This document shows positions 2,524-49,728 of a DNA stretch of 50,448 bases, one piece after another; the first letter of the stretch is position 1; each line of letters starts with the position of its first letter. Below the pieces are notes generated by a model. The model was not told the DNA's origin. It saw nothing but the letters and a program-made list of their open reading frames with translations, and did no database searches. Position numbers and translations under genes: made by a program. Source of the stretch: a virus; IMG/VR virus record IMGVR_UViG_3300021093_000113, positions 1-50,448 of that record; one strand, written 5' to 3'.

Positions 2524-2555
2524 CAAATATACAAAAGAAATCCGATATTTCCAAA
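2524..2555 (-). promoter_or_regulatory. Bacteroidota-type promoter for the 679-residue gene
   Basis: On the minus strand the sequence reads TTTG, 20 bases, TATATTTG. This matches the known Bacteroidota -33/-7 pattern (TTTG and TAnnTTTG). The spacer also shares GAAATAT and TTTCTTTTG with the duplicated promoter cassette at 3061 and 18436, so it looks like a diverged third copy. The leader to the ATG is about 36 bases. Confidence 0.7.
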
Positions 2556-6040: not shown

Positions 6041-6072
6041 CAAATATACAAAATAATTTTTAAAGTGCCAAA
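6041..6072 (-). promoter_or_regulatory. Bacteroidota-type promoter before the pyrophosphohydrolase
   Basis: The minus strand reads TTTG, 20 bases, TATATTTG, with the start codon 7 bases further on. The -33 box lies inside the last codons of thioredoxin. It probably drives the pyrophosphohydrolase, HTH and three Mom-like genes. Confidence 0.72.
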
Positions 6073-9115: not shown

Positions 9116-9144
9116 AATAATCTCCTAAAAATTTTGTGTGTAAA

Positions 9145-9152
9145 TATAAATA
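9145..9152 (-). promoter_or_regulatory. TATTTATA box before nrdB
   Basis: The coding strand reads TATTTATA 30 bases before the nrdB ATG. It is the same motif seen before most virion genes in this window. Confidence 0.4.
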
Positions 9153-10520: not shown

Positions 10521-10551
10521 ACTAATATACAACCTTAATTGGTTTTTTCAA
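10521..10551 (-). promoter_or_regulatory. Bacteroidota-type promoter before the helicase
   Basis: The minus strand reads TTTG, 19 bases, TATATTAG. It overlaps the last codons of the exonuclease gene. The ATG follows the -7 box by six bases, so the transcript may be leaderless. Confidence 0.6.
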
Positions 10552-13522: not shown

Positions 13523-13554
13523 CTAATATACAACATTTAGTTGACAATTCCAAA
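13523..13554 (-). promoter_or_regulatory. Bacteroidota-type promoter before gp32-like gene
   Basis: The minus strand reads TTTGGAA as the -33 region and TATATTAG as the -7 region, separated by 20 bases counted from TTTG. The leader is about 43 bases and includes a GGAG ribosome site. Confidence 0.68.
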
Positions 13555-17420: not shown

Positions 17421-17451
17421 CAAATATACAAAAGAAATTTGAAATTACAAA
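17421..17451 (-). promoter_or_regulatory. Bacteroidota-type promoter before the polymerase
   Basis: The minus strand reads TTTG, 19 bases, TATATTTG. The ATG follows after four bases, so the message is probably leaderless. The -33 box lies across the stop of the small 53-residue gene. Confidence 0.68.
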
Positions 17452-20996: not shown

Positions 20997-21296
20997 CTAA
21001 AACTTATTTAATTTATTATATTCATCAATTATTGGTCGTATATCAATTGGTATTCTTATTTGTTTCCCCACAGGTACTAAAAAGTCTCCTTTTCCAATAT
21101 TGTTTGCTTCTGCAATTATCCACCATAAAGTTGGGTCTTTGTAGTATGAGTATGCCAAATTATCCAATCTATCCGAATAAGAACCTATAATATATATATC
21201 GGATGATTTTTCTTTTATCATTGGATATCTAAAAGTAGGATAGTATTTTTTTCCACTATCCCGTGATAATCTATTTGGTGTGTTATATCTATTCAT
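20997..21296 (-). CDS. Baseplate wedge protein with LysM-like domain (gp53-like)
   Basis: The 99-residue protein has a short basic N-terminus and then a LysM-like domain: DRLDNLAYSYYKDPTLWWII, AEANNI and PVGKQIRIP. This is the standard pattern of T4 gp53 and of gpX-type tail proteins, which join baseplate parts. The start at 21296 has a full AGGAGG 11 bases upstream, one of the strongest ribosome sites in the window. That site lies within the end of an out-of-frame extension of the upstream 1172-residue gene, suggesting translational coupling. Confidence 0.82.
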   Translation of the reverse strand: MNRYNTPNRLSRDSGKKYYPTFRYPMIKEKSSDIYIIGSYSDRLDNLAYSYYKDPTLWWIIAEANNIGKGDFLVPVGKQIRIPIDIRPIIDEYNKLNKF

Positions 21297-21300
21297 ATTA

Positions 21301-21437
21301 TCAGTTCCTCCTTTGGTTCTGCCCCCCTTGGTTCTTATTCACTTTTTTATTCGTTTTCCCCGTACCAGCTGCTGCAGCAGGAGCTGCTGTAGTAGAAGCA
21401 GCTGCAGCAGTTCCTACTGCGGTGTTATTGATTCCTT
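21301..21437 (-). other. Out-of-frame coding continuation of the 1172-residue gene
   Basis: After the TAG at 21440-21438, the -1 frame is open for about 45 codons down to a TGA at 21303-21301. It encodes GINNTAVGTAAAASTTAAP and then a Gly/Asn/Gln/Lys tail. The upstream frame also ends in an Ala-rich stretch (KEAAAASADVT), so the two look like one Ala-rich tail cut by a single-base shift. The -1 frame is open only after a TGA about 50 bases before the TAG. It could be a programmed frameshift, a true frameshift mutation or a one-base sequence error. Confidence 0.5.
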
Positions 21438-27475: not shown

Positions 27476-27757
27476 TTATCTTCTTCTTGTTTGTGATTTT
27501 ATTCTTGCAGCCTCTTTATCGTGTGCCTTTTTTTCTGCATTCTTAAACTCAATAATTTTGGTTATGTAAAAGGTTCTCATCCACACCGGCATATTATATA
27601 CATCAGACCAGGTAAATCCACCATTCCCGTGAAATATCAAATCAAAGATTTGGGAATGTAATAACTTTCTATACTCAGGTTGATGGCCAAAAAAAGGAAA
27701 CATCCATAGGTAGACTGATTTCCCTCCTCTCCCCGGTTTCATCGGAAATAAACTCAT
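27476..27757 (-). CDS. Tail assembly chaperone-like protein, overlapping second frame
   Basis: The 93-residue frame contains FGHQPEYRKLLHSQIFDLIF, a short loop, DVYNMPVWMRTFYITKI and a basic charged helix. A MPVWMRTFYxxKL-type motif is typical of the small proteins just upstream of tape measure genes in contractile phages. The frame overlaps the end of the gp26-like gene by 83 bases and lies one base forward of it. A start at 27757 has no Shine-Dalgarno, and in-frame ATGs at 27742 and 27703 are also possible. Because the overlap contains a seven-base T run, it may be translated partly as a frameshift fusion with the gp26-like protein, as tail chaperones often are. Confidence 0.65.
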   Translation of the reverse strand: MSLFPMKPGRGGKSVYLWMFPFFGHQPEYRKLLHSQIFDLIFHGNGGFTWSDVYNMPVWMRTFYITKIIEFKNAEKKAHDKEAARIKSQTRRR

Positions 27758-28547
27758 ACATCAAGTTTATATCAGGTGTTACCTCATTTATATATTTTCG
27801 TAACTCTTTTGAATCTCTTGCAAATAGTTCATTATCTACAAAGTGATTTATTTTTTGTTGGTTGTATTCCCCATCAACTGAAATAATTATATTTTTTAAT
27901 CTTGTTGTTAATTCCCGCGAAACATCATCCTTTAATTTTTTATTAACTTTCTTTACTTCTTCCAAATCGTATTTTATTTTTCTATCTTTTGATTCGGTAA
28001 GTGCCATAAAAGTAATCTTACGTTTTGAAGCCGGTAATTCAAACTCAAATTCGTTTTTGTTTAATTCCACCTGAGCCGAACCATCATATTCTTTATTTTC
28101 AAATTGAGTTAAATCAATATTCTCTTTTTGCTTTTTCCCCGAAAACGGGTCGGTAATCTCAACCTCATAATCTTTACCATAACCTAAAATACGACTTGCA
28201 ATCATTATTGCGTTTTTATCACCTACCGATAAATCAACATATTTAATAGGTTCACCATTACCATTTGATACAATAAGCGATTGAAATAACTTATCCAATA
28301 CCGAACCATCTTTAATATAAGATTGGGTTGTTAAAATATCTTCTTCTTTTGCAGTCATATATTTTAATTCCACCTTACCTGATGATAGTGGGTTATCTTT
28401 GGTGTAAATTAACCCTTTAGATGGTAATTCTATAATTTCGGTTGGAAAGTTGTTCTCTTTTAGTTTTTGGGTTTCGTAGGCCTGTTTAATACTTTCTACA
28501 ACCTCTTTATTACTTTGTTGATAATCATCCGTTAGATTTTGGCTCAT
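27675..28547 (-). CDS. T4 gp26-like baseplate/tail assembly protein
   Basis: This 290-residue protein contains ELPSKGLIYTKDNPLSSG, VELKYMTAKEEDILT and VGDKNAIMIASRILGYGKDYE in order. The pattern is very common in T4-like phages in a family annotated as baseplate hub or T4 baseplate (gp26-like) protein. The second half is charged and helical (EEVKKVNKKLKDDVSREL). It lies upstream of the tape measure with one overlapping frame, the same gene order as tail assembly chaperones. The start has AAGGAG nine bases upstream and a TATTTATA box 18 bases upstream. T4 gp26 itself acts in hub assembly; whether this protein is in the final virion is unknown. Confidence 0.72.
   Translation of the reverse strand: MSQNLTDDYQQSNKEVVESIKQAYETQKLKENNFPTEIIELPSKGLIYTKDNPLSSGKVELKYMTAKEEDILTTQSYIKDGSVLDKLFQSLIVSNGNGEPIKYVDLSVGDKNAIMIASRILGYGKDYEVEITDPFSGKKQKENIDLTQFENKEYDGSAQVELNKNEFEFELPASKRKITFMALTESKDRKIKYDLEEVKKVNKKLKDDVSRELTTRLKNIIISVDGEYNQQKINHFVDNELFARDSKELRKYINEVTPDINLMYEFISDETGERREISLPMDVSFFWPST
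27689..27695 (-). promoter_or_regulatory. Candidate frameshift site, seven-T run
   Basis: The coding strand reads TCC TTT TTT TGG in the gp26-like frame, 12 bases before its stop. A +1 slip of the phenylalanine tRNA on this run re-pairs perfectly and enters the overlapping frame; a -2 slip gives the same frame. Confidence 0.4.
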
Positions 28548-28564
28548 AACTTTTCTCCTTTATA

Positions 28565-28572
28565 TATAAATA
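28565..28572 (-). promoter_or_regulatory. TATTTATA box before the gp26-like gene
   Basis: The coding strand reads TGTATTTATATATAAAGGAG 18 bases before the ATG. The box and ribosome site are close together, as in the other late genes. Confidence 0.42.
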
Positions 28573-29514: not shown

Positions 29515-30006
29515 TCAATATTGTAGCACGGCATAATCATAGGATAATGCTAATTCCACATTTGCTAATTCTGAGTCTGATGTATAATCCATATCTGAAA
29601 ATTTGGCTCTAGTAATAAAAGCCCCTTTCAATGTCCATTCCTCAACCTTATCACCAACCGGCCCCAATGAGTTAAATACAATCTCTTTTTTATAGAAATC
29701 TGAATAACCATCTCTACCTGTTACTGATTCGTGGTGTAGGCGAACCCACTCCATAACGGCTTGAGCACCGGATGGTACAACTGGGTCATAAAGTGTAATG
29801 GTTAATTCTTGCCATTCTGACCTACCTTTTACATATCTCCTAACATTGACATGGTCAATTGTTACTCTATTTTGTTGTATTTCAGGTCTATTTGCTGCTT
29901 TAATTAAATATGCAGGAACTCCCTCAATATACATAATAAATCGATTAGCAACTTTGGGTTCAAAGTTGGTAAACATTACCTCTTGAGGTGTTAATAATTG
30001 TGCCAT
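29515..30006 (-). CDS. Tail tube protein (gp19-like)
   Basis: This 163-residue protein forms the inner tube of the contractile tail. It shows the gp19 pattern: FEPKVANRFIMYIEGVPAYL at residue 15, ELTITLYDPVVPSGAQAV, MEWVRLHHES, VTGRDGYSDFYKKEIV and WTLKGAFITRAKFSD. The ending DVELALSYDYA-like segment (here NVELALSYDYAVLQY) is standard. The start carries TTAGGAG and a TATTTATA box 19 bases upstream, so it may have its own promoter besides reading from the sheath gene, which ends 40 bases upstream. A strong terminator follows, consistent with a highly expressed single product. Confidence 0.95.
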   Translation of the reverse strand: MAQLLTPQEVMFTNFEPKVANRFIMYIEGVPAYLIKAANRPEIQQNRVTIDHVNVRRYVKGRSEWQELTITLYDPVVPSGAQAVMEWVRLHHESVTGRDGYSDFYKKEIVFNSLGPVGDKVEEWTLKGAFITRAKFSDMDYTSDSELANVELALSYDYAVLQY

Positions 30007-30024
30007 TTATTTCTCCTAATTTAT

Positions 30025-30032
30025 TATAAATA
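30025..30032 (-). promoter_or_regulatory. TATTTATA box before the tail tube gene
   Basis: The coding strand reads GGTATATTTATAATAAAT, 19 bases before the ATG, with TTAGGAG between. Confidence 0.5.
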
Positions 30033-30046
30033 TACCCTGTCTGAAA

Positions 30047-32446
30047 TTATCCTTCAGGAAACGCTGCCCCAGTTGGTAATACACTAAAGTCTAACACAAT
30101 GAATTCAGCAGTTTTCGCTGGTTGTAAGAAGATATCACCTTTTAAGATGTTTCTATCAATCACATCAGGAGTATTATTTGATTCATCCATTATAACTCTG
30201 AATGCGAACAAACCATTTCTTTGTTGGATTGATTCCAAATAAGGATTAACAATAGATAAGAAACGATTTCGGGTTGCTGCTGTGTTATTTTCAAACACTA
30301 AATATCTCGAAGAAGATGCGATAAATTTCTTAACTGCTATCAACAATCTTCTTACATTAATTCTATCCAACGCAGATGGTTTAGCTTGTAGGGTTTTCTG
30401 TCCAAATACCGTTGCTCCCTGACCTGGGAATGTTGCGATTGGATTTACCCTACCAACATACAATTCATCTCTTTCATCGTGCGTTAATCTTGTCTTAACT
30501 TCAATTACATTTGTTAATCCACCACGATTTAATCCAGCAGGTGCGAACCATTCAGCTGCAACTTGGTCATTAAATGCGATAACACCAGGTAGAACTACAG
30601 AGGGTGGGACCCAAACAGGCTTATTCTTATCCGTATCCAATATCTTAACCCAAGGGTGATATGTTGCTACATAATTGGAATCAAACGAAGAAAGTGAATT
30701 TACAACGGTTGATATGTTATCACTCCATCCACCGGCATCCATTACAAAGAATGTATCACCTCTATCTTCACAAAGGTCTTTTGCGTATGTGGTTACTGAA
30801 GAATGTAATCTATTAATTACACCAGGAATAACAATCATATTCATATCAAACTCATCGGGATTTGATACTGCGTTTATTGCTTTTCTTAACGCAACAGTTC
30901 CTGCTGAGGTTGCTGATGTACAATCTAACCCCTGTGTGTTTCCTGCTGCAATATCATTACCAACTAACACTTTTCTATTAGGTTGGAATCCATCAAAACC
31001 ACCTTGAAATGGTATCATAAATTTCCTAGCATCCAATTGAGCAGTTGATGCACCAACAGCAAAACCAATAACACTACCATTTGATTCACACTCATTCAAA
31101 TCAAAATCAGTACCAACAGTTGTAGTTGCAGTTGCTATAGGAAGTGGATTCAAAAAGTTAAGGTTATCAGTTGCAACAAAATCAAAAGAATAACCCAAAT
31201 ATACATTTTTATTGTATGAACTCGCCAAAGATTGTGATACTACATAGGTTGGTGATGGAACAGTGCCTGCTGTAGATGGGATTGGTGATGTTAGTGCACC
31301 AAATCCAAAAGGAACTAATGATGAATCATTTGCCCCAGCTTCTACATCCGAATCAACCTCTACTCTAATATAAACTGAATTATTTGCATAATCACCATTT
31401 GTGGATAATTTACCATCATCATCAACAGTAATATATCTATCACCAATCACCCGTTTAATGTAATTTGGTGAATTTGGGTCCAAGTTTACATTTGAGAACT
31501 GCTCTAATATATTTGGACGAATATCGGCGTCTTGAACTCCTTGTCCAAAAATTGAATAAGGAATTTTAGAAGTATCTACTCTTCTTATCACAACAGTAAA
31601 TGAACCATAATCAGAACCTGGAATATCTCCGGATACTTTAATATCTCTGATACCTAGTTTAATTTCATAGTTTGTTGGATTACCATGTGATAAAGTATGG
31701 AATTTGAATAATTGTTTAGCAACTCCACCAACTTTTTGTGATTTAATCCAAGGGGTTGATGCTACTGAATATTCGTTTGAGAAATCAAAATTTGCAAATG
31801 ATGCGGTTTGAACCAATACAACTTCGTTTGTTGCAAAAGAAGCGGATTGGAATGTATTAAAGTTTAAGTAAGTGTATGCTTGTTGGCTGCTTTTTGGTAA
31901 GTATCCAAATGCTTTTGTAAAGTAATTTGCACTAGTTGGGTTTAAGGAAGATGTTGTAGTGTTATTCCCCGTAAATGCCGAACCTGATAAAACCAATCCA
32001 AATGATGATGCGGTTACATTTGTTGTAGTACCACCTACCAAATTTCTAACAAAAGATTTATCAAATAAATCAGTAGTTACATTTGGAATAGAACCACTTA
32101 AAGATGGATAAAGAACCGCTGCTACTTTATTTCCTTGTGAAGAAGAAATGGTTAAAACCAATGGATCTACAAATGTATATCCATCAGTTCCCAACACCCT
32201 AACAATAGTTGCTGCGGGTGCATCCTGCAAATAAGCCTGAGCAGTATAAGGGAGATATGAATCCTCCGTTAAACCACCAAACTTTTGTTGGAAGTCATTA
32301 AATGATTCAACCCGCGTTGGTACAAACGCAGGCCCTTTAATAGTTTGTCCGATAAGGACAGCACCTATTTCTGCTACCCCCTGAGGTAAAAACGATAAGT
32401 CCTTTTCTCGTGTAAAAACACCCGGACTAACAATTCTTTCAGCCAT
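30047..32446 (-). CDS. Tail sheath protein (gp18-like)
   Basis: This 799-residue protein is the contractile sheath subunit. The N-terminus SPGVFTREKDLS and then GQTIKGPAFVPTRVESFNDF is the typical sheath start. Residues about 640-799 hold the conserved C-terminal domain: WFAPAGLNRGGLTNV, RVNPIATFPGQGATVFGQKT, RINVRRLLIAVKKFI and FEPNNTATRNRFLS-type (here FENNTAATRNRFLS), which form the mesh around the tube. The middle (about 100-560) is long and variable and rich in Ser/Thr/Asn, larger than in T4 gp18 (659 residues), so extra surface domains are likely. It is upstream of the tail tube gene, as in T4. TTAGGAG precedes the ATG. Confidence 0.96.
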   Translation of the reverse strand: MAERIVSPGVFTREKDLSFLPQGVAEIGAVLIGQTIKGPAFVPTRVESFNDFQQKFGGLTEDSYLPYTAQAYLQDAPAATIVRVLGTDGYTFVDPLVLTISSSQGNKVAAVLYPSLSGSIPNVTTDLFDKSFVRNLVGGTTTNVTASSFGLVLSGSAFTGNNTTTSSLNPTSANYFTKAFGYLPKSSQQAYTYLNFNTFQSASFATNEVVLVQTASFANFDFSNEYSVASTPWIKSQKVGGVAKQLFKFHTLSHGNPTNYEIKLGIRDIKVSGDIPGSDYGSFTVVIRRVDTSKIPYSIFGQGVQDADIRPNILEQFSNVNLDPNSPNYIKRVIGDRYITVDDDGKLSTNGDYANNSVYIRVEVDSDVEAGANDSSLVPFGFGALTSPIPSTAGTVPSPTYVVSQSLASSYNKNVYLGYSFDFVATDNLNFLNPLPIATATTTVGTDFDLNECESNGSVIGFAVGASTAQLDARKFMIPFQGGFDGFQPNRKVLVGNDIAAGNTQGLDCTSATSAGTVALRKAINAVSNPDEFDMNMIVIPGVINRLHSSVTTYAKDLCEDRGDTFFVMDAGGWSDNISTVVNSLSSFDSNYVATYHPWVKILDTDKNKPVWVPPSVVLPGVIAFNDQVAAEWFAPAGLNRGGLTNVIEVKTRLTHDERDELYVGRVNPIATFPGQGATVFGQKTLQAKPSALDRINVRRLLIAVKKFIASSSRYLVFENNTAATRNRFLSIVNPYLESIQQRNGLFAFRVIMDESNNTPDVIDRNILKGDIFLQPAKTAEFIVLDFSVLPTGAAFPEG

Positions 32447-32477
32447 TATATTCTCCTAATAGTTTTTGTTTCTATAT

Positions 32478-34217: not shown

Positions 34218-35381
34218 TTATCCCACGTAAATTGGCATTGGAACACGATTAAGTGTTGATTCTAAAAATTCAGTTTCATCCTTTTTGGCTTCTAAAAGCG
34301 ACCTTCTGCTTGTTGCTTCCAATATCTCTTTTAATTGTGTTATCAACTGCTCTTTTTCAGTTGCGGCTTGGGTTTTTAAATCAGAACCATCCAATGTAAC
34401 TTCTGCTCCAGGGATTGGAATTGAACCAAACTTAGAACGAACTGTTCCTAACACTTCTTTTACTAATGCTAATGTATATTTAAATATCCATTGTCTACCA
34501 TGCGCACTTATATCACAATAATCCAATCTACCAAATGGAGCATTTGAAAAATCAGACACAACATTTGATTTTGCTACTGGATTGTTTCTTTCTGAATCCA
34601 ATGTGTATTCAAAATAAACTTTTAAACCATCATCAGTATCTTTTGGGTATGGAAATATACGAACCCTCTTACCATATAGTTTAAATCCAAATTGAGATTT
34701 TCTAATCATATCGTTGAATTCAATCGCTTGTAAACGAAGAAGGTCATCATACATAGGTTGCATCATAAAAGATACACCTGGTGAGTAATTACCCCACCCA
34801 AAGGTTTCCATCATTTGTTGTGAACCTAACCCAGTTCCAACGAATGGGTCAAAGTAACGAATAATTGCAGGTGGTGCTTCATGATGCATCTTACGAATTG
34901 TTATGGAATCAGATGTTAAATTACCTGCTTCCAAACTTGCAACCGAACTATCACCTAAATCATAAACCTGCTTTCCGCTCTCCATTGTAAACGAACCTGT
35001 ATATTGGGTTAATCTACCACCACTCCCTGCTTCAGTCCCATAATCCGATGCAATGTTTATTACCCCACCAAAGTTATTGTTCAACAATTTTTTGGTAAAG
35101 TTTCCCGTTAGCGATGAACCTTGAATACTTAATAAGTTTTCTTTGGTTCGGTATTGGTTTAATTGCGATGAAAATTCATCTACTGCTTCTTCAAAGCATG
35201 CGTAAAAATCTATATCTTGCAGTTCTATATCTACAATAGGATAACCAAGTCTAAGAGCACACCACTTTGTTACTGAGTCTGCATCAACTTGGAAATCATA
35301 ATCATTATCAAACCATCCAAATGGTGTTTTGCCGGGAAAGAATGATGATGAACCGGGATATATTGAGATATTAACTGCCAT
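34218..35381 (-). CDS. Neck protein (gp13-like)
   Basis: This 387-residue protein has features of T4 gp13-type neck proteins. An N-terminal helical domain has DADSVTKWCALRLGYPIVDIEL and FEEAVDEFSSQLNQYR. A variable middle follows. The conserved part RVRIFPYPKDTDDGLKVYFEY and WIFKYTLALVKEVLGTVRSKFGSIPIPG is characteristic of this family in T4-like phages. The C-terminal helix (QLITQLKEILEATSRRS) is charged. It seals the portal after DNA packaging. Start context is CGGAG about ten bases before the ATG. Confidence 0.8.
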   Translation of the reverse strand: MAVNISIYPGSSSFFPGKTPFGWFDNDYDFQVDADSVTKWCALRLGYPIVDIELQDIDFYACFEEAVDEFSSQLNQYRTKENLLSIQGSSLTGNFTKKLLNNNFGGVINIASDYGTEAGSGGRLTQYTGSFTMESGKQVYDLGDSSVASLEAGNLTSDSITIRKMHHEAPPAIIRYFDPFVGTGLGSQQMMETFGWGNYSPGVSFMMQPMYDDLLRLQAIEFNDMIRKSQFGFKLYGKRVRIFPYPKDTDDGLKVYFEYTLDSERNNPVAKSNVVSDFSNAPFGRLDYCDISAHGRQWIFKYTLALVKEVLGTVRSKFGSIPIPGAEVTLDGSDLKTQAATEKEQLITQLKEILEATSRRSLLEAKKDETEFLESTLNRVPMPIYVG

Positions 35382-35386
35382 TTTTG

Positions 35387-35779
35387 TTATTCTCCGTCAG
35401 TAGTTTCTTCACCACCATTGGTTTCTTCACCACCATTGGTTTCTTCACTACTTTCTTCAGTAATTGGTTCTTCCACCACAGGCTTTACATAGTGTTCAAA
35501 TGTTGCTGCGGCATTTACATCGTTTGCGGATTGTAAATTTGCTATAACATAACTTTCTAATGCATCAATAAGTTTTGAATAACCATCCACAATTTCGGAG
35601 TTATACACTAATACTTTTTTATCAATTGAATGATATGCTACCGTTCCACCTCCGCTGATATGAACATCCATTTGCAATCCCCCCTCATATTGTAAATGTG
35701 GGACAAGTGTTAATAATGGTGATTCGTGAATGAGGCCTGTTGTTGGGTTTTTGAAATACCCAGTTACTTTTATTGCCAT
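35387..35779 (-). CDS. Small unknown virion-region protein with acidic repeat tail
   Basis: This 130-residue protein has a beta-rich N-terminal domain (MAIKVTGYFKNPTTGLIH, LQMDVHISGGGTVAYHS) and a helix with YSKLIDALESYVIANL. The tail is Glu/Gly/Thr-rich and repeats EETNGG twice. I do not recognise a family; a head or neck decoration or adaptor role is possible from position. The start has CGGAG and a TATTTATT box 21 bases upstream, so this gene probably heads the transcript for the neck genes. Confidence 0.78.
   Translation of the reverse strand: MAIKVTGYFKNPTTGLIHESPLLTLVPHLQYEGGLQMDVHISGGGTVAYHSIDKKVLVYNSEIVDGYSKLIDALESYVIANLQSANDVNAAATFEHYVKPVVEEPITEESSEETNGGEETNGGEETTDGE
35403..35449. 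repeat. 18-base tandem repeat in acidic tail
   Basis: An 18-base unit occurs twice exactly (35403-35420 and 35421-35438) plus a partial third, encoding the EETNGG units. Confidence 0.85.
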
Positions 35780-35799
35780 AATACTTTTCTCCGTTTTAT

Positions 35800-35835: not shown

Positions 35836-36402
35836 TTAGATTACTTTTGTATGTGGTCTTGAACTCCAATATTCTTCCCCACCATAATAGGTGCATATTT
35901 CTTCACCTTCTTCTATATCTCTAATAGATACAAAATTAAATGCTTTCCATTCGGGATGGTCTACCCAATCTGCATTTGGTGTATTTGAATGGTTATAAAT
36001 ACATCCTAATCCTAGTGGGATAACAAACTCTAAGCCTGCATTTTTCGGATATACAAATCTATAATCTCCCAATGTATTAGAATCAGAAGAAACATTTAGT
36101 GTTATTAAATGACAAGTTTCTATTATTTCTCCTTTTAATATTTTTTCAGTAGCAAACACACCCAAGCCTTTACCAATAGATTCATATACTCTAACTTTGG
36201 TAGGGGGTAAGAAATTAGCAGATGGTAATTTTTTATTAATATTAGAGGGTGTTGTTGAATTTACTTTTAATACTACATCTTCTTTTTTTAATAATTTACC
36301 ATCAGATGCTATTTTTTGAAATTCTTTCATACTTAATTTAATAATGGGTTTACCACTATCTTTGATTTGTTGTAGGAGTTGGGGTGTGGGTTTGAGAAAC
36401 AT
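35836..36402 (-). CDS. SET-domain protein (putative protein lysine methyltransferase)
   Basis: This 188-residue protein has a short N-terminal region and a SET domain from about residue 68. VYESIGKGLGVFATEKILKG is the first SET motif. YNHSNTPNADW is the NHS motif that binds the methyl donor S-adenosylmethionine. DIEEGEEICTYYG is the final motif with the catalytic tyrosine. SET enzymes methylate lysines on proteins. There are no pre- or post-SET cysteine clusters. It lies between the fiber gene and neck genes in the late region, so its substrate may be a virion protein or a host protein; this is inference. Its start is four bases after the fiber gene stop, without a Shine-Dalgarno. Confidence 0.88.
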   Translation of the reverse strand: MFLKPTPQLLQQIKDSGKPIIKLSMKEFQKIASDGKLLKKEDVVLKVNSTTPSNINKKLPSANFLPPTKVRVYESIGKGLGVFATEKILKGEIIETCHLITLNVSSDSNTLGDYRFVYPKNAGLEFVIPLGLGCIYNHSNTPNADWVDHPEWKAFNFVSIRDIEEGEEICTYYGGEEYWSSRPHTKVI

Positions 36403-39966: not shown

Positions 39967-42105
39967 TTAACTATATATCCAAATACTTTCATCGGTTGAG
40001 TTTACATAAATGTTACCATATCCGCCCGCCGAACCACCATAAGTTGGTGCGGAAGAAGGTGCTCCCAATGCTTGAATAGCACTTACCATAAAATCAGTTG
40101 GGGTTACATTAGATGATGTCGCGTGAACATCTGCTGCCAATCCCCATCGTCCTGTTACATTTACATCACTACCACTATTAAATAAGAATGCTTGTCCCTT
40201 ATCTGCTGTACTACCCTCTACGATTATACCACCCTCTGCTATTGGTGAAATAGAACCCGAACCATGTGCTAAAATTATAAACTTATCCTCAACCGTAAGA
40301 TTTGTAGTATCTATCGTTGTGGTAGTTCCGTTTACTGTCAGGTCACCGGTTATTGTTGCATTACCATCAACAGTTAAGTTATTTCTAACGGTGGTTGTTC
40401 CTGTTGTATTGCCTATATTCACTGCGGTTGCAGCGCCAGCAAAGCTAATGGTCTGTACATTTTGACTTAATAATGAGAATGTGGATTGGTTTGTTGCAAT
40501 ACCATTTGATGAATTAACATTTAATGTATTACTTAAAGTAGTTACACCAGTTACACCTAATGTTCCACCAATGGTTGAGTTTCCTGTGACAAATAAATCG
40601 CCTGAAGAACTTATGTTACCACTTGCGGTTATGTTTGTAGTGGTTATAGCACCATTTGCGGTTAATCTTCCTGTAATAGTTTCAGTACCAGTAATGGTTG
40701 AGTTTCCTGTAACACTTAAATTGCCTGAAGAACTTATGTTACCACTTGCGGTTATGTTTGTAGTGGTTATAGCACCATTTGCGGTTAATCTTCCTGTAAT
40801 AGTTTCAGTACCAGTAATGGTTGAGTTTCCTGTAACACTTAAATTGCCTGATGCGGATATGTTACCACTTGCGGTTATGTTGTTTCCAAAGGTAGAATTA
40901 CCTATGGTTAATGCATTGGATGTTCTATTAAATGTTAATTCAGCATCATCGTTAATACTAGTAGATGTGTTCCATAAAACCACTCTATCAGCCGTACCAG
41001 TACCCGATATGTTACCTATAGAGGATGTTGAAAGATAACTAAATTGGCCTGATGCGGAATTATATAATAATACATTTGCGTTTGATGCGGATGGTATATT
41101 ACTTGCGGTTATAGTTGTTGCCCATAAAGAACCACTTACTTGAAGTGTGTTTGATGGTGTTTGGGTATTTGAAAGCCCTATACCCACACCCTCTCTTAAT
41201 ATGGTTTTTGTAGTGCTTGTATTACCTAATACAACACTATTATCTCCTGCACCAATAGCGTCATAGCCAATTACTATTTCATTAGTTCCATTACTACCAC
41301 TCGCTCTTGTTGCATTTCCTATAAATATAGATTGATTTGAAGAAGCATTTGCAGTACTACCATCCGATAAGTATTTTCCGGCAACTACACCTACTGCGGT
41401 ATTGTTATCACCATTGTTGTTATATAATGCACCCGCACCTACTGCGGTGTTACTTGTACCACCAGTATTACTAAAAAGAGAATTTGCACCTACTGCGGTA
41501 TTTTCATTTGTAGTGGCAAGTTTCAAAGCGTTAGCACCAATCGCAGTATTTAGATTTCCATTGACGTTGGCTTGTAATGCAATATACCCCAACGCAGTAT
41601 TATCAGCACCATCCGCATTACCATTAAGAGCCTGATTACCTACAGCAGTATTTCTTTGAGCTACTACACCAGTTATATTATTTGCAAGCGCGCCTGCACC
41701 AACGCTGGTATTGGTTGATTGATCACCACCACCATTACCTATATTAACACCATTTACAATAATATCCTCGGTTGTTTCTAATTGAGCACCTGGGCTTGCA
41801 GTTCCAATACCTACATCTCCACTACTATCAATGGTCATTCTTACCGAATTATTAGTTTCAAATTGTAAATCATGGTTATCATTAGTACCTAAAACGGCAG
41901 TTGCCCCAAATGAGTTGCCATTTTGTACAAATGTATTTGGGTTTGCTACAGAAGATGTATTAAAATAACTAAATATACCTGTGGTTGGATTATAACCGAC
42001 AATTTGTGCTGTAGGCGTGGATGTATTATTTGTTAGGTTACTTGCAGTTATCCCTTGAAGGTGTGCTTGTGAGCCTGATACTATTACTTTTTTCCATGAT
42101 GCCAT
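39967..42105 (-). CDS. Tail fiber protein with YadA-like head repeats (fiber 2)
   Basis: This 712-residue protein has an anchor domain (MASWKKVIVSGSQA, ITASNLT, GYNPTTGIFSYFNTSS) like fiber 1. It then has a block of about eight repeats of NTAVGxxAL type (for example NTALGYIAL, NTAIGANAL), which are the left-handed beta-roll head repeats of YadA-type adhesins. After SLGN-type spacers, 41-residue tandem repeats follow (ITASGNISSSGNLSVTGNS and TETITGRLTANGAITTTN). The C-terminal 110 residues (DLTVNGTTTTIDTTNLTVED, then a Ser/Gly/Tyr tail) resemble phage fiber tips. It likely forms a trimer that binds the host surface. Confidence 0.88.
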   Translation of the reverse strand: MASWKKVIVSGSQAHLQGITASNLTNNTSTPTAQIVGYNPTTGIFSYFNTSSVANPNTFVQNGNSFGATAVLGTNDNHDLQFETNNSVRMTIDSSGDVGIGTASPGAQLETTEDIIVNGVNIGNGGGDQSTNTSVGAGALANNITGVVAQRNTAVGNQALNGNADGADNTALGYIALQANVNGNLNTAIGANALKLATTNENTAVGANSLFSNTGGTSNTAVGAGALYNNNGDNNTAVGVVAGKYLSDGSTANASSNQSIFIGNATRASGSNGTNEIVIGYDAIGAGDNSVVLGNTSTTKTILREGVGIGLSNTQTPSNTLQVSGSLWATTITASNIPSASNANVLLYNSASGQFSYLSTSSIGNISGTGTADRVVLWNTSTSINDDAELTFNRTSNALTIGNSTFGNNITASGNISASGNLSVTGNSTITGTETITGRLTANGAITTTNITASGNISSSGNLSVTGNSTITGTETITGRLTANGAITTTNITASGNISSSGDLFVTGNSTIGGTLGVTGVTTLSNTLNVNSSNGIATNQSTFSLLSQNVQTISFAGAATAVNIGNTTGTTTVRNNLTVDGNATITGDLTVNGTTTTIDTTNLTVEDKFIILAHGSGSISPIAEGGIIVEGSTADKGQAFLFNSGSDVNVTGRWGLAADVHATSSNVTPTDFMVSAIQALGAPSSAPTYGGSAGGYGNIYVNSTDESIWIYS
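40571..40880. repeat. 123-base tandem repeat in fiber 2
   Basis: Units start at 40571, 40694 and 40817; the first two are full and almost identical, the third partial. Each codes for 41 residues, keeping the frame. Such repeats change fiber length by recombination. Confidence 0.9.
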
Positions 42106-42131
42106 ATTAGTGTTCTCCTAATTTTTTACTA

Positions 42132-42139
42132 TATAAATA
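42132..42139 (-). promoter_or_regulatory. TATTTATA box before fiber 2
   Basis: The coding strand reads CACTATTTATTTATATAG, 27 bases before the ATG at 42105, followed by TTAGGAG. Confidence 0.45.
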
Positions 42140-42911: not shown

Positions 42912-45311
42912 CTATGTTAATACATATGTTATTGAACTTCCAGCTCCGCCTGCTTGAAGAGTTGTTGTCCTATAAACCTTATAGTTACCAACAGTTGATA
43001 CGGTAAAAGAACCTAATACACCAAAACCACTTGTAGTAATATTTGTTAAGTTTGAGCGAGAGCCACTATAAACAATATAATGATATTTATCCCCTGTCCA
43101 ATTTATAGTTACCGATTGACCTGATGGATTTACCGTCCCCTTCACAATTGTACCAATAGAACCACCCAATGTAGTATCCCACCCGGAAAGATTATCTAAT
43201 TGTGCTTCAGTAAAACTTGCATCCGATGCAGCACCATGTCTTAAACTTACTATTTTAGTATAAGTTGTAGTTGTTGATGTGGTTGTTGTTAAAGCTGGAT
43301 TATTATCAGAACCATTCACTCCTGATGATGAATAATATGCAGTTGCGGTTATTGGTATAGAAGCAGAACCCGTTGCTGAACCTGTTACAAAATATGGTGA
43401 ATTGAAATTAGTACTCACAAAGTTTAACACCCATCCGTTTGCATCGCCAGAAGCTGAAGTGAATGAAATACTTCCCGTAGCACCTCTTTCAATTTGATTT
43501 GAACTACCACCCAATTGAACAGATGGTGTCAAAGTTAGTGTTGGTGAACCAGGATTTGATTTACTTAATGTACCGGTTGCTGAAGCTGAACCACTAAATA
43601 TACTCCCATCCAATGGTGAACTTGCGGTATATTGTAAACTATATGATTGAGAACCACTCGTTGTTAGACTGGTTGATAAGGATGTACCGGATGTTGTACT
43701 TGTCAATAAAACCGAACCAGTATATAATGATGCGGATATGATATTGTAACCACCATTACTCCAACTACCACTAACATCATACCCATCCAATACCTGATTA
43801 AACCTATCTGTACTAAAGCCACTTAATGTTAGTGTTATTGATGATGGTAATGTTGGTGATCCAAATATAAACTTTAATCTACCATTTACCCAAGTAACAG
43901 CAACATCGTCTGAAAAATCTTGAACCTCTATTTGATTTAACCCACTGTAAATATCACCACTTTGCGATACATAACTAACTGATGCGGAATTTATAGATTC
44001 ATCAATTGTTTTACCATTTACAGTAAGAGAACCTGTTATATTTAAAGAACCTGTAAATATATGGGTATCATCTAAACTATTACCAAATTGTGTAGAGCCT
44101 GATTGATATATGATACTTGCAGATACAAATTCAGTATGAAACTCTTCTGCAGTTATTCTACCTGTAACTACCATATTTCCATCTACATGCAACCTTTCGG
44201 TTGGTGAAGTTGTACCTATGCCTACTAAACCCGTATTAGTAATACGCATTCTTTCTGCTAAACCACTAGGAGATGCGTTTTGTTGAGTAGAGAATACTAA
44301 ATATCCATCAGGGGTTGTATCTGTAGTGTATGCAGCAATTTGAGCCTTAGTTACACTAAAAGTTGGTGTATCATTATTTCTAAATCTAATAGCTCCTATA
44401 AGTTGGTCTGCTGCTACTGAACTGTTTGGATTGTATAAATCTAAATGGGCATTTATACCTCCTATTACTACAGATGAAGTATCAGGATGATTTAGGATGG
44501 AAGAATCAGTACCTACAATTATAGCGTTTGTACTGAGATTATTTGTATAAAGCTGAAGTGTTGAACCATCAAATGTTAAGTTTGTTTCTCCATTTATTGT
44601 TCCACCACCCGTAGCAGTTAATACATTATTATTAGTATTATTTGTTATAGATGGAGTTATGTTGGATGCTGTCTGAGCGGTTATTGCTTGACTTGATGTT
44701 ATACTATAAGTTCCAATTGGTAAAAATGATGCTGTCTGAGCGGTTATTGCTTGACTTGATGTTATACTATAAGTTCCAATTGGTAGAAAAGATGCTGTTT
44801 GAGCGGTTATTGTTTGACTTGATGTTATACTATAAGTTCCAATTGGTAGAAAAGATGCTGTTTGAGCATTTATAGCATTTGAAGCACTTTGGGCCCAAGA
44901 GGATGTTCCCAATAAAGAGCCTGTTATTGATGTTGCGGTTATACCTCCATTTACTTGTAGGGTGTTTGTTGGTGATGTTGTACCTATGCCTATGTTACCG
45001 CTTGAACTTATATACAAAAATGTAGATGAACCACTTTGTACTTTAAAAGTATCTGCTCCTACATTTACTGAAGCTGTTATGCTGCCTGTTGTTATTTGAT
45101 TATTAATGCTGTTTACACCCGGATCACCTTTATCACCTCTATCACCTTTAGGACCTTTAGATGCTACAGTAACAACTGCTGTTTCTTTTTGTAGTACACT
45201 TATAGAAGTATCACGCTTCTTATCAGAGACTACAACCGTATTTTCGTTTTTGGTTAATTCTACTGAATTTTGATTTGATACAACTTTTACATCTAGTCTA
45301 TCATTACTCAC
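42912..45311 (-). CDS. Tail fiber protein with collagen-like segment (fiber 4)
   Basis: This 799-residue protein has a distinctive N-terminal region. After about 50 residues, GPKGDRGDKGDPG is a collagen-like segment, a known trimerising shaft element. A GIGTTSPTNTLQVNGG repeat and three 21-residue tandem repeats (TAQTASFLPIGTYSITSSQ) follow. A cassette shared with fiber 1 (TPSITNNT, LTATGGGTINGE, and TERLHVDGNM, RITAEEFHTEFVSAS) comes next. The last 330 residues are Ser/Thr/Gly-rich, probably a stack of beta domains that ends YKVYRTTTLQAGGAGSS. The start is GTG at 45311, overlapping the upstream stop in GTGA. It is likely a host-binding fiber. Confidence 0.85.
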   Translation of the reverse strand: MSNDRLDVKVVSNQNSVELTKNENTVVVSDKKRDTSISVLQKETAVVTVASKGPKGDRGDKGDPGVNSINNQITTGSITASVNVGADTFKVQSGSSTFLYISSSGNIGIGTTSPTNTLQVNGGITATSITGSLLGTSSWAQSASNAINAQTASFLPIGTYSITSSQTITAQTASFLPIGTYSITSSQAITAQTASFLPIGTYSITSSQAITAQTASNITPSITNNTNNNVLTATGGGTINGETNLTFDGSTLQLYTNNLSTNAIIVGTDSSILNHPDTSSVVIGGINAHLDLYNPNSSVAADQLIGAIRFRNNDTPTFSVTKAQIAAYTTDTTPDGYLVFSTQQNASPSGLAERMRITNTGLVGIGTTSPTERLHVDGNMVVTGRITAEEFHTEFVSASIIYQSGSTQFGNSLDDTHIFTGSLNITGSLTVNGKTIDESINSASVSYVSQSGDIYSGLNQIEVQDFSDDVAVTWVNGRLKFIFGSPTLPSSITLTLSGFSTDRFNQVLDGYDVSGSWSNGGYNIISASLYTGSVLLTSTTSGTSLSTSLTTSGSQSYSLQYTASSPLDGSIFSGSASATGTLSKSNPGSPTLTLTPSVQLGGSSNQIERGATGSISFTSASGDANGWVLNFVSTNFNSPYFVTGSATGSASIPITATAYYSSSGVNGSDNNPALTTTTSTTTTYTKIVSLRHGAASDASFTEAQLDNLSGWDTTLGGSIGTIVKGTVNPSGQSVTINWTGDKYHYIVYSGSRSNLTNITTSGFGVLGSFTVSTVGNYKVYRTTTLQAGGAGSSITYVLT
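44665..44870. repeat. 63-base tandem repeat in fiber 4
   Basis: Three consecutive 63-base units, nearly identical, plus a partial fourth, each coding for 21 residues of the form TAQTASFLPIGTYSITSSQ. The same unit occurs once in fiber 1 near 37905-37990. Confidence 0.9.
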
Positions 45312-45697
45312 CTAGTTACCTCTTTTGAAAGTTTCACTATACCTTCCAATAATCTCGTAACTATACCACTTTGGGATTCTAATTCAACATCATATACACC
45401 TTCGGTGAAATTTAATGTTGAAGATGTTGCAGCAGAAATAAATAAACCAATACTACCCGATGTTGTTGGTAGTGTTATTGATGCAGAGGTTGGTGTTAAA
45501 TCTAACCCCGTACCATCTGCCATTAAAGTATTTGTTAAAGAAAGATACGTTGTAGAAGAATCTACAGACGGTCTTATTTGCATTCTTGCAGTATATCCAC
45601 TTAAGTCAACAGGATTTCCATTTGAATCTTTATATTCCAACAATAAATCGGTAGTTGCTCCCTGCTCTATGGTTAATAAGTATCTTCCTGCTGCCAT
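45308..45697 (-). CDS. BppU-like fiber attachment protein
   Basis: This 129-residue protein has the pattern of BppU N-terminal domains. The N-terminal strand LTIEQGATTDLLLEY is followed by DSNGNPVDLSGYTARMQIR, then a Ser/Thr/Gly segment and GVYDVELESQSG with VTRLLEGIVKLSKEVTR at the end. In other phages this domain attaches fibers or receptor-binding proteins to the baseplate. It immediately precedes and overlaps the fiber 4 gene by four bases, so translational coupling is likely. Start TAGGAG lies before the ATG, with a TATTTATA box 25 bases upstream. Confidence 0.8.
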   Translation of the reverse strand: MAAGRYLLTIEQGATTDLLLEYKDSNGNPVDLSGYTARMQIRPSVDSSTTYLSLTNTLMADGTGLDLTPTSASITLPTTSGSIGLFISAATSSTLNFTEGVYDVELESQSGIVTRLLEGIVKLSKEVTR

Positions 45698-45721
45698 TTT
45701 TTTACTCCTATGTGTTATTAA

Positions 45722-45729
45722 TATAAATA
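45722..45729 (-). promoter_or_regulatory. TATTTATA box before the BppU-like gene
   Basis: The coding strand reads AGATATTTATATTAATAAC, 25 bases before the ATG at 45697. Confidence 0.45.
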
Positions 45730-46488: not shown

Positions 46489-48147
46489 TTATTGACCGGA
46501 GATAGTCTCCAATCCGTTCACATACACTTTACCATAGAACTCACCTCTCACCATTTCTTTGGCGTAGCGGGTCATTACACCCTTACGAGGTGTAAAGTTC
46601 TTATAGTCATACACAAGTGGAGTCATAATTAATGGAATGTAAGGAGCGTAAACAGCACCAGTTTCCAAGAATTGTGTTCCTTTGTAACCCATCAACACAA
46701 GGTTTTCTTGCATATATGGATTCTTATACACTTTGTAACGCTGAGCGAAAGAACCTACACGGGTTAAACCGAATGCGAATTCTCTCTCTTCACCAGTTCC
46801 ATCGGCTACATAGCCAGGAATTGATTCTAACACAGTTGCAACATCAGGAGAACATACAATGAAGTTTGCACCACCACGCATTGTCTTAGCGTGAATTTGG
46901 TTAGAAACTCTCTGCAATACAGTTCCGAATGTAGCGAACCAAGTTCCCTGAATGTAAGCCTGTCCGGCCAAATTAGCATCTTGTACGAATGCGCTTCCAT
47001 TCCAAACTTGTCCGATTTTTGCAGACCAGTAACCTGTAGTCAATGCGTTTTGAATTAACATATCCAAGATTTCAAAATCAATCTCTTGTGATACATATTC
47101 AGATAACATTGAAGTTAATTCTGCTTCTGCATCAATAGAGTGATATGCGTTCAAGTCTTGCGCAAATTCAGGTGTCCATTGTGCTTTCAACTTACGAGTT
47201 TTAGCAACAATCGGAACTGATCTCATCTCAATGTTCAATTCTGGGATATCAATATCAGTTTCAGGATTTAGAGCCATCTGACCTTTAGTTGTCTCAAAAT
47301 CACCACGAGCTGAATCAATTGGTTGCTTTTGGTATCTAATTGTTGCGGTGGTTGCACCTGTAGCAGATGTTACCTTAACAATAAACGAAATTTGAGTATC
47401 TGTTGAGTTCACAGTTGTAAATTGCGGATATGCTTCAACGATATTATCACCACTAATTGTGAATGCACGAACACCTTCTAAATCAGGACGAGTAAACGAT
47501 GCTGTACTGAATGTAAGTTTTTGGAATGTACCACTATTTGACGCAGACCACGCAGTATCGTAATTGAAATCTGATGGATTATTAGCAAATGAGAATGTGG
47601 CAGATGAGGTTGCCATTGCTGTAGAAGTTGGAGCTGCAGCTTTAGTGCTGATAGAGTCTGTTGCAGAATCATTGATAGTGTAACCGAAACGGCCAGCACC
47701 ATATAAACCACCTGAAGGCTGATCGGCAGTTTCGGTGATACCAAATACTGAATCAGCTTGTGAAGTAAGTCCTGAACCGGTTGTGAAACCTGGTTGATTT
47801 GTTCCATACTTAAAATCTAAGTAGAAAATAAGACCGGAAGGAAGGTTCATTGGTTGTACTGAAACAAACTCTTTCGCAGCGATTTCAGAGAAAATACGGC
47901 GAACAAGCGGAAGAGCTACACCATTCCACTCTTCACCAGCAGCACCAAACATATTGGTTGCAGTTGCTTCAGTTACTAATTGTTTTGCTTGGTTTTCCAA
48001 AAGTTGTGCCATATTGGTTCTTTCAGTCTCATTAGAAATTCCTTCTAAAAGACCGGTTTTTGCCCACTTAGCAACCAAACCTTTGGCTTCTTTACGAAGC
48101 ACTCTTTCAAATCCAGCGCTTTCGTTTAAAATGCTTTTTATATTCAT
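46489..48147 (-). CDS. Major capsid protein (gp23-like)
   Basis: This 552-residue protein matches the T4 gp23 family. The N-terminal prosegment is helical (LRKEAKGLVAKWAKTGLL). AAGEEWNGVALPLVRRIFSEIAAKEFVSVQPM is the typical start of the mature fold (quoted here only in parts: LVRRIFSEIAAKEFVSVQ). Later segments include QWTPEFAQDLNAYHSIDAE, SEYVSQEIDFEILDML and GANFIVCSPDVATVLES. The end is typical: PLIMTPLVYDYKNFTPRKGV and MTRYAKEMVRGEFYGKV. It forms the hexamers of the head. A terminator follows and the scaffold gene is 26 bases upstream. Proteolytic maturation is likely, but I could not place the cut site. Confidence 0.96.
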   Translation of the reverse strand: MNIKSILNESAGFERVLRKEAKGLVAKWAKTGLLEGISNETERTNMAQLLENQAKQLVTEATATNMFGAAGEEWNGVALPLVRRIFSEIAAKEFVSVQPMNLPSGLIFYLDFKYGTNQPGFTTGSGLTSQADSVFGITETADQPSGGLYGAGRFGYTINDSATDSISTKAAAPTSTAMATSSATFSFANNPSDFNYDTAWSASNSGTFQKLTFSTASFTRPDLEGVRAFTISGDNIVEAYPQFTTVNSTDTQISFIVKVTSATGATTATIRYQKQPIDSARGDFETTKGQMALNPETDIDIPELNIEMRSVPIVAKTRKLKAQWTPEFAQDLNAYHSIDAEAELTSMLSEYVSQEIDFEILDMLIQNALTTGYWSAKIGQVWNGSAFVQDANLAGQAYIQGTWFATFGTVLQRVSNQIHAKTMRGGANFIVCSPDVATVLESIPGYVADGTGEEREFAFGLTRVGSFAQRYKVYKNPYMQENLVLMGYKGTQFLETGAVYAPYIPLIMTPLVYDYKNFTPRKGVMTRYAKEMVRGEFYGKVYVNGLETISGQ

Positions 48148-48173
48148 TTTTATCCTTTATTTTGGTTATACGA

Positions 48174-49331
48174 TTATTTTTTGATATTAGCGAGTTTTTG
48201 GAATCTTGCAGCCAATGAAGAACCTTCGGTGATAATACCAGCAGGCTTTGTTCCTTTTGTTGGTCTAGATGCAAATGATTCTTTTACAACTCTCTTTTGT
48301 GTTTTTCTTGCAACATTAAGATTTTCACCCAATGTAGCGAAAACTAATTTTACTTCTCTCAAAGATGAAGCACGGTCAAAATTTTCAACAACTTTAACTT
48401 TTTGCTTTTCATTCAAATCAAAGTTTCTGAAAAGTTTATTGGTGTATAAAAGTTTTGCATTCAAAAGGTTTACTTCATTGATAGTGTTCTTCAATGATTT
48501 GATAACTTTATATGCTTCTTCTAAATCACTCTTCATTTCTTCGGCTTCTTCTTCGGTCATACCAGCTACAGTTTCTTCTTCATCATCTTCAGCAGGTACA
48601 TCACCATTCATTTCTCTAAGAGCTCTGATAACTTCGTCTAAATTAACTTCAGTATCATCATCCTCTTCTTCTGCAACAAAATCACCTTCACCTGGATCTT
48701 CAGTGTCGGCGGTTAAGTCAGCTACTTTGTTATCACCAGAACCGATTCCAGATGATTCCAATTCGGTCAATCTCTTACTAACTCTTTCACGAATTCTTTT
48801 TAATTCGGCAATTTCAGGATTTTCCTTTTCTTCTTCTTCTTCGGTTGCAAGAGTGTCATCTTCTTCACTACCCATTTCAGCTTCCAATTCTTTGATAATT
48901 GATTCTAAATCTAAATCGGATGTATCTTCTTCAGCACCCATCTCATCTTCTTCACCTACCATTGCTGTTGCATCATCGTCATCATCGTCATCATCATCAT
49001 CGTCATCATCGTCATCATCATTACTTTCACCACCCATAGTACCCGTCATCATCTCATCTTCTTCGGTTGCAAGGGTTTCATCCTCTTCACCCTCATAATA
49101 CCCTTCTTCAGTATCCATCATCTCATCATCAGTATCCATCATCTCATCTTCTTCGGTTGCGAGAGTTTCATCATCTTCTAACTCTTCGGCCAATTTGTGA
49201 GACAACATAGACTGTAGTCTTGGTGTGAATGCCTCTTCAAGAGCGATTTTTGCATTTGCTAATGCGGTTTCCTTAACGGCTTTAGCATCGGCGATTGCTT
49301 CTTTAAGCAAATCTTTTTTGCCTGTTTTCAT
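48174..49331 (-). CDS. Prohead scaffold/core protein (gp22-like), very acidic
   Basis: This 385-residue protein is the likely internal scaffold of the prohead. Residues about 50-230 are extremely acidic, with repeats of DETLATEEDEMM (at least two exact, one partial) and a run of 16 Asp. The C-terminal third is helical and well ordered in look: EAYKVIKSLKNTINEVNLL, AKLLYTNKLFRNF and KVVENFDRASSLREVKLVF, a pattern I know from scaffold proteins of T4 relatives. The last residues are basic and Ser-rich (SLAARFQKLANIKK). It is directly upstream of the capsid gene, as gp22 in T4. The start has TTAGGAG. Confidence 0.85.
   Translation of the reverse strand: MKTGKKDLLKEAIADAKAVKETALANAKIALEEAFTPRLQSMLSHKLAEELEDDETLATEEDEMMDTDDEMMDTEEGYYEGEEDETLATEEDEMMTGTMGGESNDDDDDDDDDDDDDDDDATAMVGEEDEMGAEEDTSDLDLESIIKELEAEMGSEEDDTLATEEEEEKENPEIAELKRIRERVSKRLTELESSGIGSGDNKVADLTADTEDPGEGDFVAEEEDDDTEVNLDEVIRALREMNGDVPAEDDEEETVAGMTEEEAEEMKSDLEEAYKVIKSLKNTINEVNLLNAKLLYTNKLFRNFDLNEKQKVKVVENFDRASSLREVKLVFATLGENLNVARKTQKRVVKESFASRPTKGTKPAGIITEGSSLAARFQKLANIKK
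48972..49019. repeat. Poly-Asp codon repeat in scaffold gene
   Basis: Sixteen consecutive GAT/GAC codons, arranged partly as nine-base units (two GAT, one GAC). This low-complexity run could slip in replication. Confidence 0.95.
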
Positions 49332-49357
49332 TTAATCTCCTAAATTTTTTGGAAAAA

Positions 49358-49377
49358 TAAGATTATTAAAAATCTTA
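49358..49377 (-). promoter_or_regulatory. Hairpin near the scaffold ribosome site
   Basis: TAAGATT and AATCTTA form a seven-pair stem around a six-base loop in the leader of the scaffold/capsid transcript, about 15 bases upstream of TTAGGAG. Confidence 0.45.
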
Positions 49378-49470: not shown

Positions 49471-49728
49471 TTATTTTTCTAAACTTTTTAAATATTCTTT
49501 TCTTTTTGCTAATTCTAATTGCCTTCTTTTTGTAATAGATTTAGGAACAAATTCGGTTCTTTCCCGTAATTCATCCATCATTCCACTATCTTTAACCATT
49601 TTTTTAAAAAGTTTTAATGCAGCATCTACATTATTTTCTACTACTTTTACTGCAATCCCCCCACCGGGTTTATACATTAATTCTCTTCTTACTTTTTTCT
49701 TTTTTGGTCTTTCTTCGTTTTCACTCAT
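49471..49728 (-). CDS. rpsU: Ribosomal protein bS21, phage-encoded
   Basis: The 85-residue protein has a basic N-terminal extension (about 22 residues, KKKKVRREL) and then the bS21 pattern. IAVKVVENNVDAALKLFKKMVKDSGM is the first helix (cited here in parts: NVDAALKLFKKMV). DELRERTEFVPKS is the conserved turn with RxRxxF. TKRRQLELAKRKEYLKSL is the basic second helix. bS21 sits on the small subunit near the 3' end of 16S rRNA. In Bacteroidota it helps hide the anti-Shine-Dalgarno, so a phage version could change which messages are translated. It is located between two unknown proteins and the scaffold gene. No Shine-Dalgarno is visible before its own ATG. Confidence 0.9.
   Translation of the reverse strand: MSENEERPKKKKVRRELMYKPGGGIAVKVVENNVDAALKLFKKMVKDSGMMDELRERTEFVPKSITKRRQLELAKRKEYLKSLEK

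Follow-up and report, generated by a model that had tools for sequence, protein, structure and literature searches.

Why should a bacteriophage encode a ribosomal protein, and does that protein bear on the translation of phage messages? To our knowledge, phage ribosomal proteins have been recognised since 2019 with no demonstrated use. The question is raised here by an IMG/VR sequence of 50.4 kb (the window, meaning the whole stretch of DNA analysed), a fragment of a T4-like myovirus with all genes on the minus strand. Its genes specify the gp23 capsid protein, a putative scaffold, sheath, tube, baseplate and fibre proteins, followed by RNR, gp41, UvsX, gp32 and others; the homologues of gp23, sheath, tube, gp41, UvsX and gp32, together with the late promoter, identify a T4-like contractile-tail phage. 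Beside the scaffold gene, and at a distance of two genes from that for gp23, in synteny with the capsid genes, lies a gene for the ribosomal protein bS21, which carries no Shine-Dalgarno (SD) sequence of its own.

49471-49728, minus strand: bS21 gene, 85 residues, without an SD of its own
48174-49331, minus strand: putative prohead scaffold gene, SD TTAGGAG at 49337-49343
46489-48147, minus strand: major capsid protein gp23 gene, SD AAGGA at 48153-48157

A preliminary description of this DNA, made from the letters alone, had called the ORF a good bS21, and profile searches bear this out, with 44.6 bits for Pfam PF01165 (cut-off 27) and 44.4 bits for TIGR00030 (cut-off 28.95). The closest solved structure is bS21 of Flavobacterium johnsoniae (7jil). 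The AlphaFold model (mean pLDDT 78) shows the predicted bS21 fold, with helices at residues 34-48, 50-56 and 63-84, and the protein as modelled has the small, basic, three-helix form of bS21. It is preceded by an N-terminal extension of about 25 residues, rich in lysine and arginine and mostly unstructured in the model; this basic extension is specific to the clade. No close match to the protein was found among cultured phage records, and phmmer searches with approximate E. coli queries found no bS18, bS6, IF1 or IF3. Two features of the surrounding DNA were also seen. A terminator-like hairpin (CACCTATC...GGTAGGTG followed by a T run) stands directly upstream of bS21 in L056, L065, L071, L082 and other relatives and is absent from the window, and an inverted repeat, AAGATT-N-AATCTT (49359-49376), lies ahead of the scaffold-gene SD and is conserved in most of the bS21-bearing clade. 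Elsewhere in the window, three tandem paralogues of Mom-like DNA-modification proteins (3162-5413; phrog_1384, each E < 1e-40) probably serve in anti-restriction, and a SET-domain protein (PF00856, 49.7 bits) is encoded at 35836-36402, between fibre and adaptor genes.

The start sites of the window fall into two classes, one with an SD, often behind a T4-like late promoter, and one in which the -7 element of a Bacteroidota-type promoter precedes a start without an SD.

45705-45709, minus strand: SD AGGAG of the fibre-assembly gene (45308-45697), late promoter TATTTATA at 45722-45729
42115-42121, minus strand: SD TTAGGAG of the tail fibre gene (39967-42105), late promoter TATTTATA at 42132-42139
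35789-35792, minus strand: SD GGAG (CGGAG) of the gene at 35387-35779
35392-35395, minus strand: SD GGAG (CGGAG) of the head-tail adaptor gene (34218-35381)
32453-32459, minus strand: SD TTAGGAG of the tail sheath gene (30047-32446)
30013-30019, minus strand: SD TTAGGAG of the tail tube gene (29515-30006), late promoter TATTTATA at 30025-30032
28555-28560, minus strand: SD AAGGAG of the baseplate hub gene (27675-28547), late promoter TATTTATA at 28565-28572
21307-21313, minus strand: SD AAGGAGG of the gp53-like baseplate gene (20997-21296), pairing energy -12.4 kcal/mol
9122-9128, minus strand: SD TTAGGAG of nrdB (8123-9115), late-type promoter TATTTATA at 9145-9152
17421-17428, minus strand: Bacteroidota-type -7 element TATATTTG of an SD-less polymerase-related gene (16214-17416), ending 4 nt before the ATG
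10522-10529, minus strand: -7 element TATATTAG of the SD-less gp41 helicase gene (9157-10515), ending 6 nt before the ATG
6041-6048, minus strand: -7 element TATATTTG of the SD-less MazG gene (start 6033)
2524-2531, minus strand: -7 element TATATTTG of the SD-less gene at 448-2487
13523-13530, minus strand: -7 element TATATTAG of the gp32 gene (start 13480), an exception that joins an early promoter to GGAG

The preliminary description had reported SDs at ten virion starts. The SDs are there (AGGAG, AAGGAG, AAGGAGG or CGGAG at 9115, 21296, 28547, 30006, 32446, 35381, 35779, 42105, 45697 and 49331), but the start at 9115 belongs to nrdB (phrog_86) and not to a virion gene. Its other readings of the start sites hold: the starts at 2487, 3032, 6033, 10515, 17416, 17606 and 18400 have no SD upstream, gp32 combines an early promoter with GGAG, and bS21 has no visible SD. 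An SD core also precedes trx, nrdA, gp32 and the gene at 13976. The late-type promoter and SD of nrdB (9122-9152) set it apart from the surrounding replication genes, and this SD is kept in most relatives. Overall, an SD core was found at 13/21 virion genes versus 5/19 others in the window (Fisher p = 0.03), and pairing energies of the two groups differ with p = 0.0008.

As statistics from the window alone are no more than suggestive (p = 0.03), relatives were brought in, 80 from a capsid search and 80 more from a search with the capsid of Flavobacterium phage immuto; the clade of the window is here termed the w-clade. Genes were called uniformly as the longest ATG ORFs, and an SD core was scored at -20 to -4 from the ATG, with -60 to -44 as control. 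The method detects SDs, since T4 gave 59% against 4% in the control. PF01165 was searched in 50 whole records (37 capsid relatives and 13 found via bS21) and bS21 was present in 48 of them; the two exceptions, L015 and L026, end close to the capsid gene. No bS21 was found in the complete genome of immuto or in 30 immuto-type contigs of up to 183 kb.

The SD signal differs sharply between these sister clades. Across 67 bS21-bearing loci, 52.4% of 901 mostly late genes have an SD versus 2.6% in the control, with a sharp peak 7-14 nt before the ATG. The immuto-type loci without bS21 gave 6.0% versus 13.6% (397 genes) and 12.0% versus 7.4% (367 genes), and IMG/VR phages with a host-like, Tyr54-bearing bS21 gave 8% versus 13% (75 genes). 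An SD precedes the capsid gene in 78 of 79 bS21-bearing relatives, in none of 43 bS21-less immuto-type phages and in none of 8 phages with the Tyr54-bearing host-like protein. Twelve longer genomes had SDs at 16-47% of genes (control 3-11%), and immuto at 3-7% (control 10-14%). The signal is also conserved gene by gene: wherever sheath, tube, capsid and scaffold orthologues were found in w-clade genomes, they carry an SD, and the sheath and scaffold SDs occur in every bS21-bearing genome compared except Mel-JY01, whose recorded assignment as a Microcystis phage was given no weight. In immuto, no SD was found on the sheath, tube, capsid, scaffold, adaptor or fibre genes. The gp41, exonuclease and UvsX orthologues had an SD in no genome compared, and the bS21 gene itself had one in 0/39 distinct core-clade leaders, or in 3/42 when the outlying L012, L013 and Mel-JY01 are included. 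Six other bS21-less Bacteroidota phages gave no clear SD signal (phi38:1, phi4:1, phiST, FCL-2 and crAss001 at or near the control; B40-8 12% versus 6%). Thus SD use follows the type of phage bS21 in sister clades; the presence of bS21 changes once on the capsid tree, so that this contrast counts as one event. As a separate observation, the bS21-less immuto-type L326, L328, L331, L340, L341 and L350 have an SD on the apparent scaffold orthologue (leader TCC-AATTAAATTTAAGGAG), which may be a relic.

The two start classes follow two kinds of promoter. In ten genomes pooled, SDs were found at 93/182 starts behind the T4-like late motif TATTTAT versus 6/94 behind TTG-N16-22-GTATMTTW (odds ratio 15, p = 5e-15), so the two classes that had been proposed for the window are seen across whole genomes of its relatives. 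Immuto has the late motif TATTTAT in common with them, but 0/24 starts behind it carry an SD. Of 78 early-promoter genes, about half have just 2-9 nt between the end of the -7 element and the ATG, which suggests that these early messages are leaderless or nearly so. Part of the early/late contrast thus arises because a -7 element no more than 9 nt from the ATG leaves no room for an SD, a cause that the preliminary description did not mention, and near-leaderlessness is enough by itself to remove SDs from these genes, a point against any change in the ribosome. The start classes as a whole might even be a by-product of promoter architecture, with early leaders short or lacking and late leaders long enough for an SD, and AGGAG might be a transcription element. 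We consider such an origin highly improbable, since the position of the motif is set relative to the start codon (7-14 nt) and does not vary with how far away the late promoter lies, the capsid and scaffold genes carry SDs with no late promoter close by, and in immuto SDs are lacking despite late promoters and leaders. Behind the late promoter, about 50% of genes have an SD in every bin of leader length from 12 to 80 nt.

In F. johnsoniae, Tyr54 of bS21 stacks on A1534 of the 16S rRNA tail; the Y54A mutation raises SD-led translation about threefold, and C-terminal truncation of the host protein also increases it (PMC9976891). The preliminary description had advised comparing the C-terminal residues of the phage protein with those of the host. 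Set against F. johnsoniae bS21, the window protein has Arg76 in place of tyrosine at the position sensitive to Y54A, with Tyr79 one helical turn further. The protein thereby lacks the aromatic residue at 54 found in the anti-SD-sequestering, Bacteroidia-type bS21. Throughout the w-clade, nearly all bS21s have Arg at this position, usually with Tyr or Trp three residues later. Tyr at position 54 occurs only in L065, L345/L358, L360 and L361; as all four of these lineages use SDs, residue 54 alone does not decide SD use. A strict rule with Tyr54 as sole determinant was rejected, given that these lineages keep both Tyr and SDs.

In our view these observations are best explained by a putative ribosome switch. 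In Bacteroidia, the C-terminal helix of the host bS21, via Tyr54 on A1534, helps to tuck the 16S 3' tail into the bS18/bS6 pocket, with the result that SDs are ignored. The phage bS21, predicted to keep the fold while carrying Arg at 54 and the clade-specific basic N-terminal extension, would enter host 30S subunits instead of the host protein. Ribosomes containing it would expose the anti-SD, which in turn would favour messages with ordinary SDs, that is, the late messages of the phage. Meanwhile, unmodified ribosomes could read the early genes, with their host-type promoters and short SD-less leaders, as well as the SD-less bS21 gene, so the switch would need no prior change. The genomic SD pattern fits a release of the anti-SD as in Y54A or C-terminal deletion. 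We judge the chances evenly balanced that the phage bS21 replaces the host's, releases the anti-SD and favours SD-led late messages. The fuller claim, in which the phage turns SD-blind Bacteroidia ribosomes into SD-using ones, with SDs on late genes and with early and bS21 genes readable by unmodified ribosomes, is put forward more tentatively, at slightly less than an even chance. The strength of the phage SDs speaks against the switch: most lie at -6 to -9 kcal/mol, far weaker than the Flavobacterium rpsU SD (about -19.8 kcal/mol), which is known to work.

Evidence on the host comes from Bacteroidota promoters in the window and from an identical tRNA-Phe in the sister phage G009, rather than in the window itself. 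Bacteroidota promoters have the form TTTG/TAnnTTTG (PMC2483708). The promoter TTTG-N17-20-GTATATTWG occurs in 5 copies in the window versus 0.1 expected, and in 1-22 copies in the relatives counted versus 0-0.3 expected, an excess that supports the putative Bacteroidota-type host suggested at the outset. Comparison of the phage bS21 with 395 Bacteroidota genomes distinguished two host types, a Tyr54-type and an Arg-type class. Arg-type genomes (the G445 class) have SDs at 34-38% of genes versus 6-10% in the control, and Tyr54-type genomes at 6-7% versus 5-7%. In the Bacteroidota genomes sampled, residue 54 of the host bS21 thus varies together with SD use, Arg being found with SDs and Tyr with their lack, an observation that bears on why Bacteroidia gave up SDs.

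The best host matches to the phage bS21 (48-50% identity; L367, L370, L371) belong to the Arg-type class. Because these nearest host proteins come from an SD-using class, which counts against the switch, the SD rules of the host itself must be taken seriously as an alternative for some of the clade. In that case the host would be an SD-using Bacteroidota of the G445 class with Arg at 54 in its own bS21, the phage SDs would follow host rules, and the phage bS21 would be a stolen host copy. We regard this as unlikely, though it is the most serious competitor of the switch. In the sister phage G009, whose capsid is 85% identical, there is a tRNA-Phe that is 100% identical over 74 nt to those of G423 and G301 and 99% identical to that of G242; these three genomes encode a Tyr54-type bS21 and their genes show a slight SD signal or none, which favours an ordinary SD-less, Tyr54-type host. 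The best tRNA matches of G037 likewise lie almost all outside the Arg-type class. Furthermore, early-promoter genes have SDs in just 6/94 cases, far below the level of Arg-type hosts and SD-poor like the genes of Tyr54-type hosts; the strict phage promoter pattern shows a slight excess in Tyr54-type genomes and none over the reversed control in Arg-type ones; and among cultured relatives whose host is trusted, the closest infects Flavobacterium. The tRNA array of G004 gave no informative match to host genomes, and counts of canonical TTTG-N19-21-TAnnTTTG in 34 Bacteroidota genomes did not separate the two host classes. Tetranucleotide profiles ranked G242 top for the window, G009 and G004, but this call carries no weight, because among the controls FCL-2 also picked G242, and phiST and crAss001 picked the wrong class.

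The single change of bS21 on the capsid tree allows for another history. The late SDs might be inherited from SD-using T4-like ancestors and act via general mRNA affinity or an unknown phage factor, with bS21 serving another purpose, for instance to make up for host bS21 that is lost or to take over translation in general, and the pairing of the two being historical. T4 late genes are indeed SD-led, the scaffold SD persists in some bS21-less immuto-type phages, and Tyr54 is retained in some SD-using lineages. However, the immuto-type phages, which have the same ancestry, late promoter and host phylum, lost nearly all their SDs, so SDs are not kept without use; moreover, the early genes are SD-poor within the same SD-rich genomes. 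We therefore hold simple inheritance to be improbable, somewhat more so than an SD-using host. The relic SD on the scaffold gene of some immuto-type phages hints that an SD-using ancestor may have lost its SDs together with bS21, which would be in line with the switch.

Taken together, the ribosome reprogramming proposed in the preliminary description is strengthened by the putative Bacteroidota-type host, the two start classes, SD use that follows the bS21 type and Arg at 54, and weakened by the single bS21 event, the Tyr exceptions and the SD-using nearest hosts. The late-gene SD signal follows the phage bS21 type, and the residue that differs is a known structural switch of the host ribosome, which makes the question of why phages carry bS21 directly testable. 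If the model is true, the virus would impose specialised ribosomes and change the mode of translation initiation of its host.

Several elements of this proposal are already known, namely phage bS21 with the idea of ribosome takeover (PMC6375957, PMC9723584) and release of the anti-SD by an altered host bS21 (PMC9976891). Our literature search found no paper that links the type of phage bS21 to SDs on phage late genes. The bS21 of Pelagibacter phage HTVC008M enters ribosomes when expressed in E. coli, a precedent in favour of the switch, and with it E. coli ribosomes are nearly inactive in vitro, which speaks against it (PMC6375957); that system differs in its SAR11 host, and neither anti-SD sequestration nor a link to SDs was reported for it. 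Flavobacterium phage immuto (NC_055915), the nearest cultured relative with a trusted host, has the capsid family and the late promoter motif in common with the window, but its whole genome lacks bS21 and the same genes lack SDs. The phages of Chen et al. 2022 (PMC9723584) resemble ours in being large and T4-like, with predicted Bacteroidota hosts and bS21 beside capsid genes, and a late-stage ribosome takeover is proposed for them; an SD analysis of phage genes is not reported in the passages drawn on here. All 61 of their Bacteroidota phage bS21s have an aromatic residue at position 54, unlike the w-clade proteins, which mostly have Arg there, carry the basic N-terminal extension and accompany SD-led late genes. 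The system of bS21-lacking ribosomes and rpsU autoregulation in F. johnsoniae is alike in that a bS21 deprived of its C-terminus or of Tyr54 no longer masks the anti-SD, to the advantage of SD-led messages, and the authors of that work speculate on phage bS21 without proposing SD-led phage messages (PMC9976891). The gene that regulates itself there is the host's own and has an extreme SD; here the virus would supply the variant protein along with many ordinary SDs.
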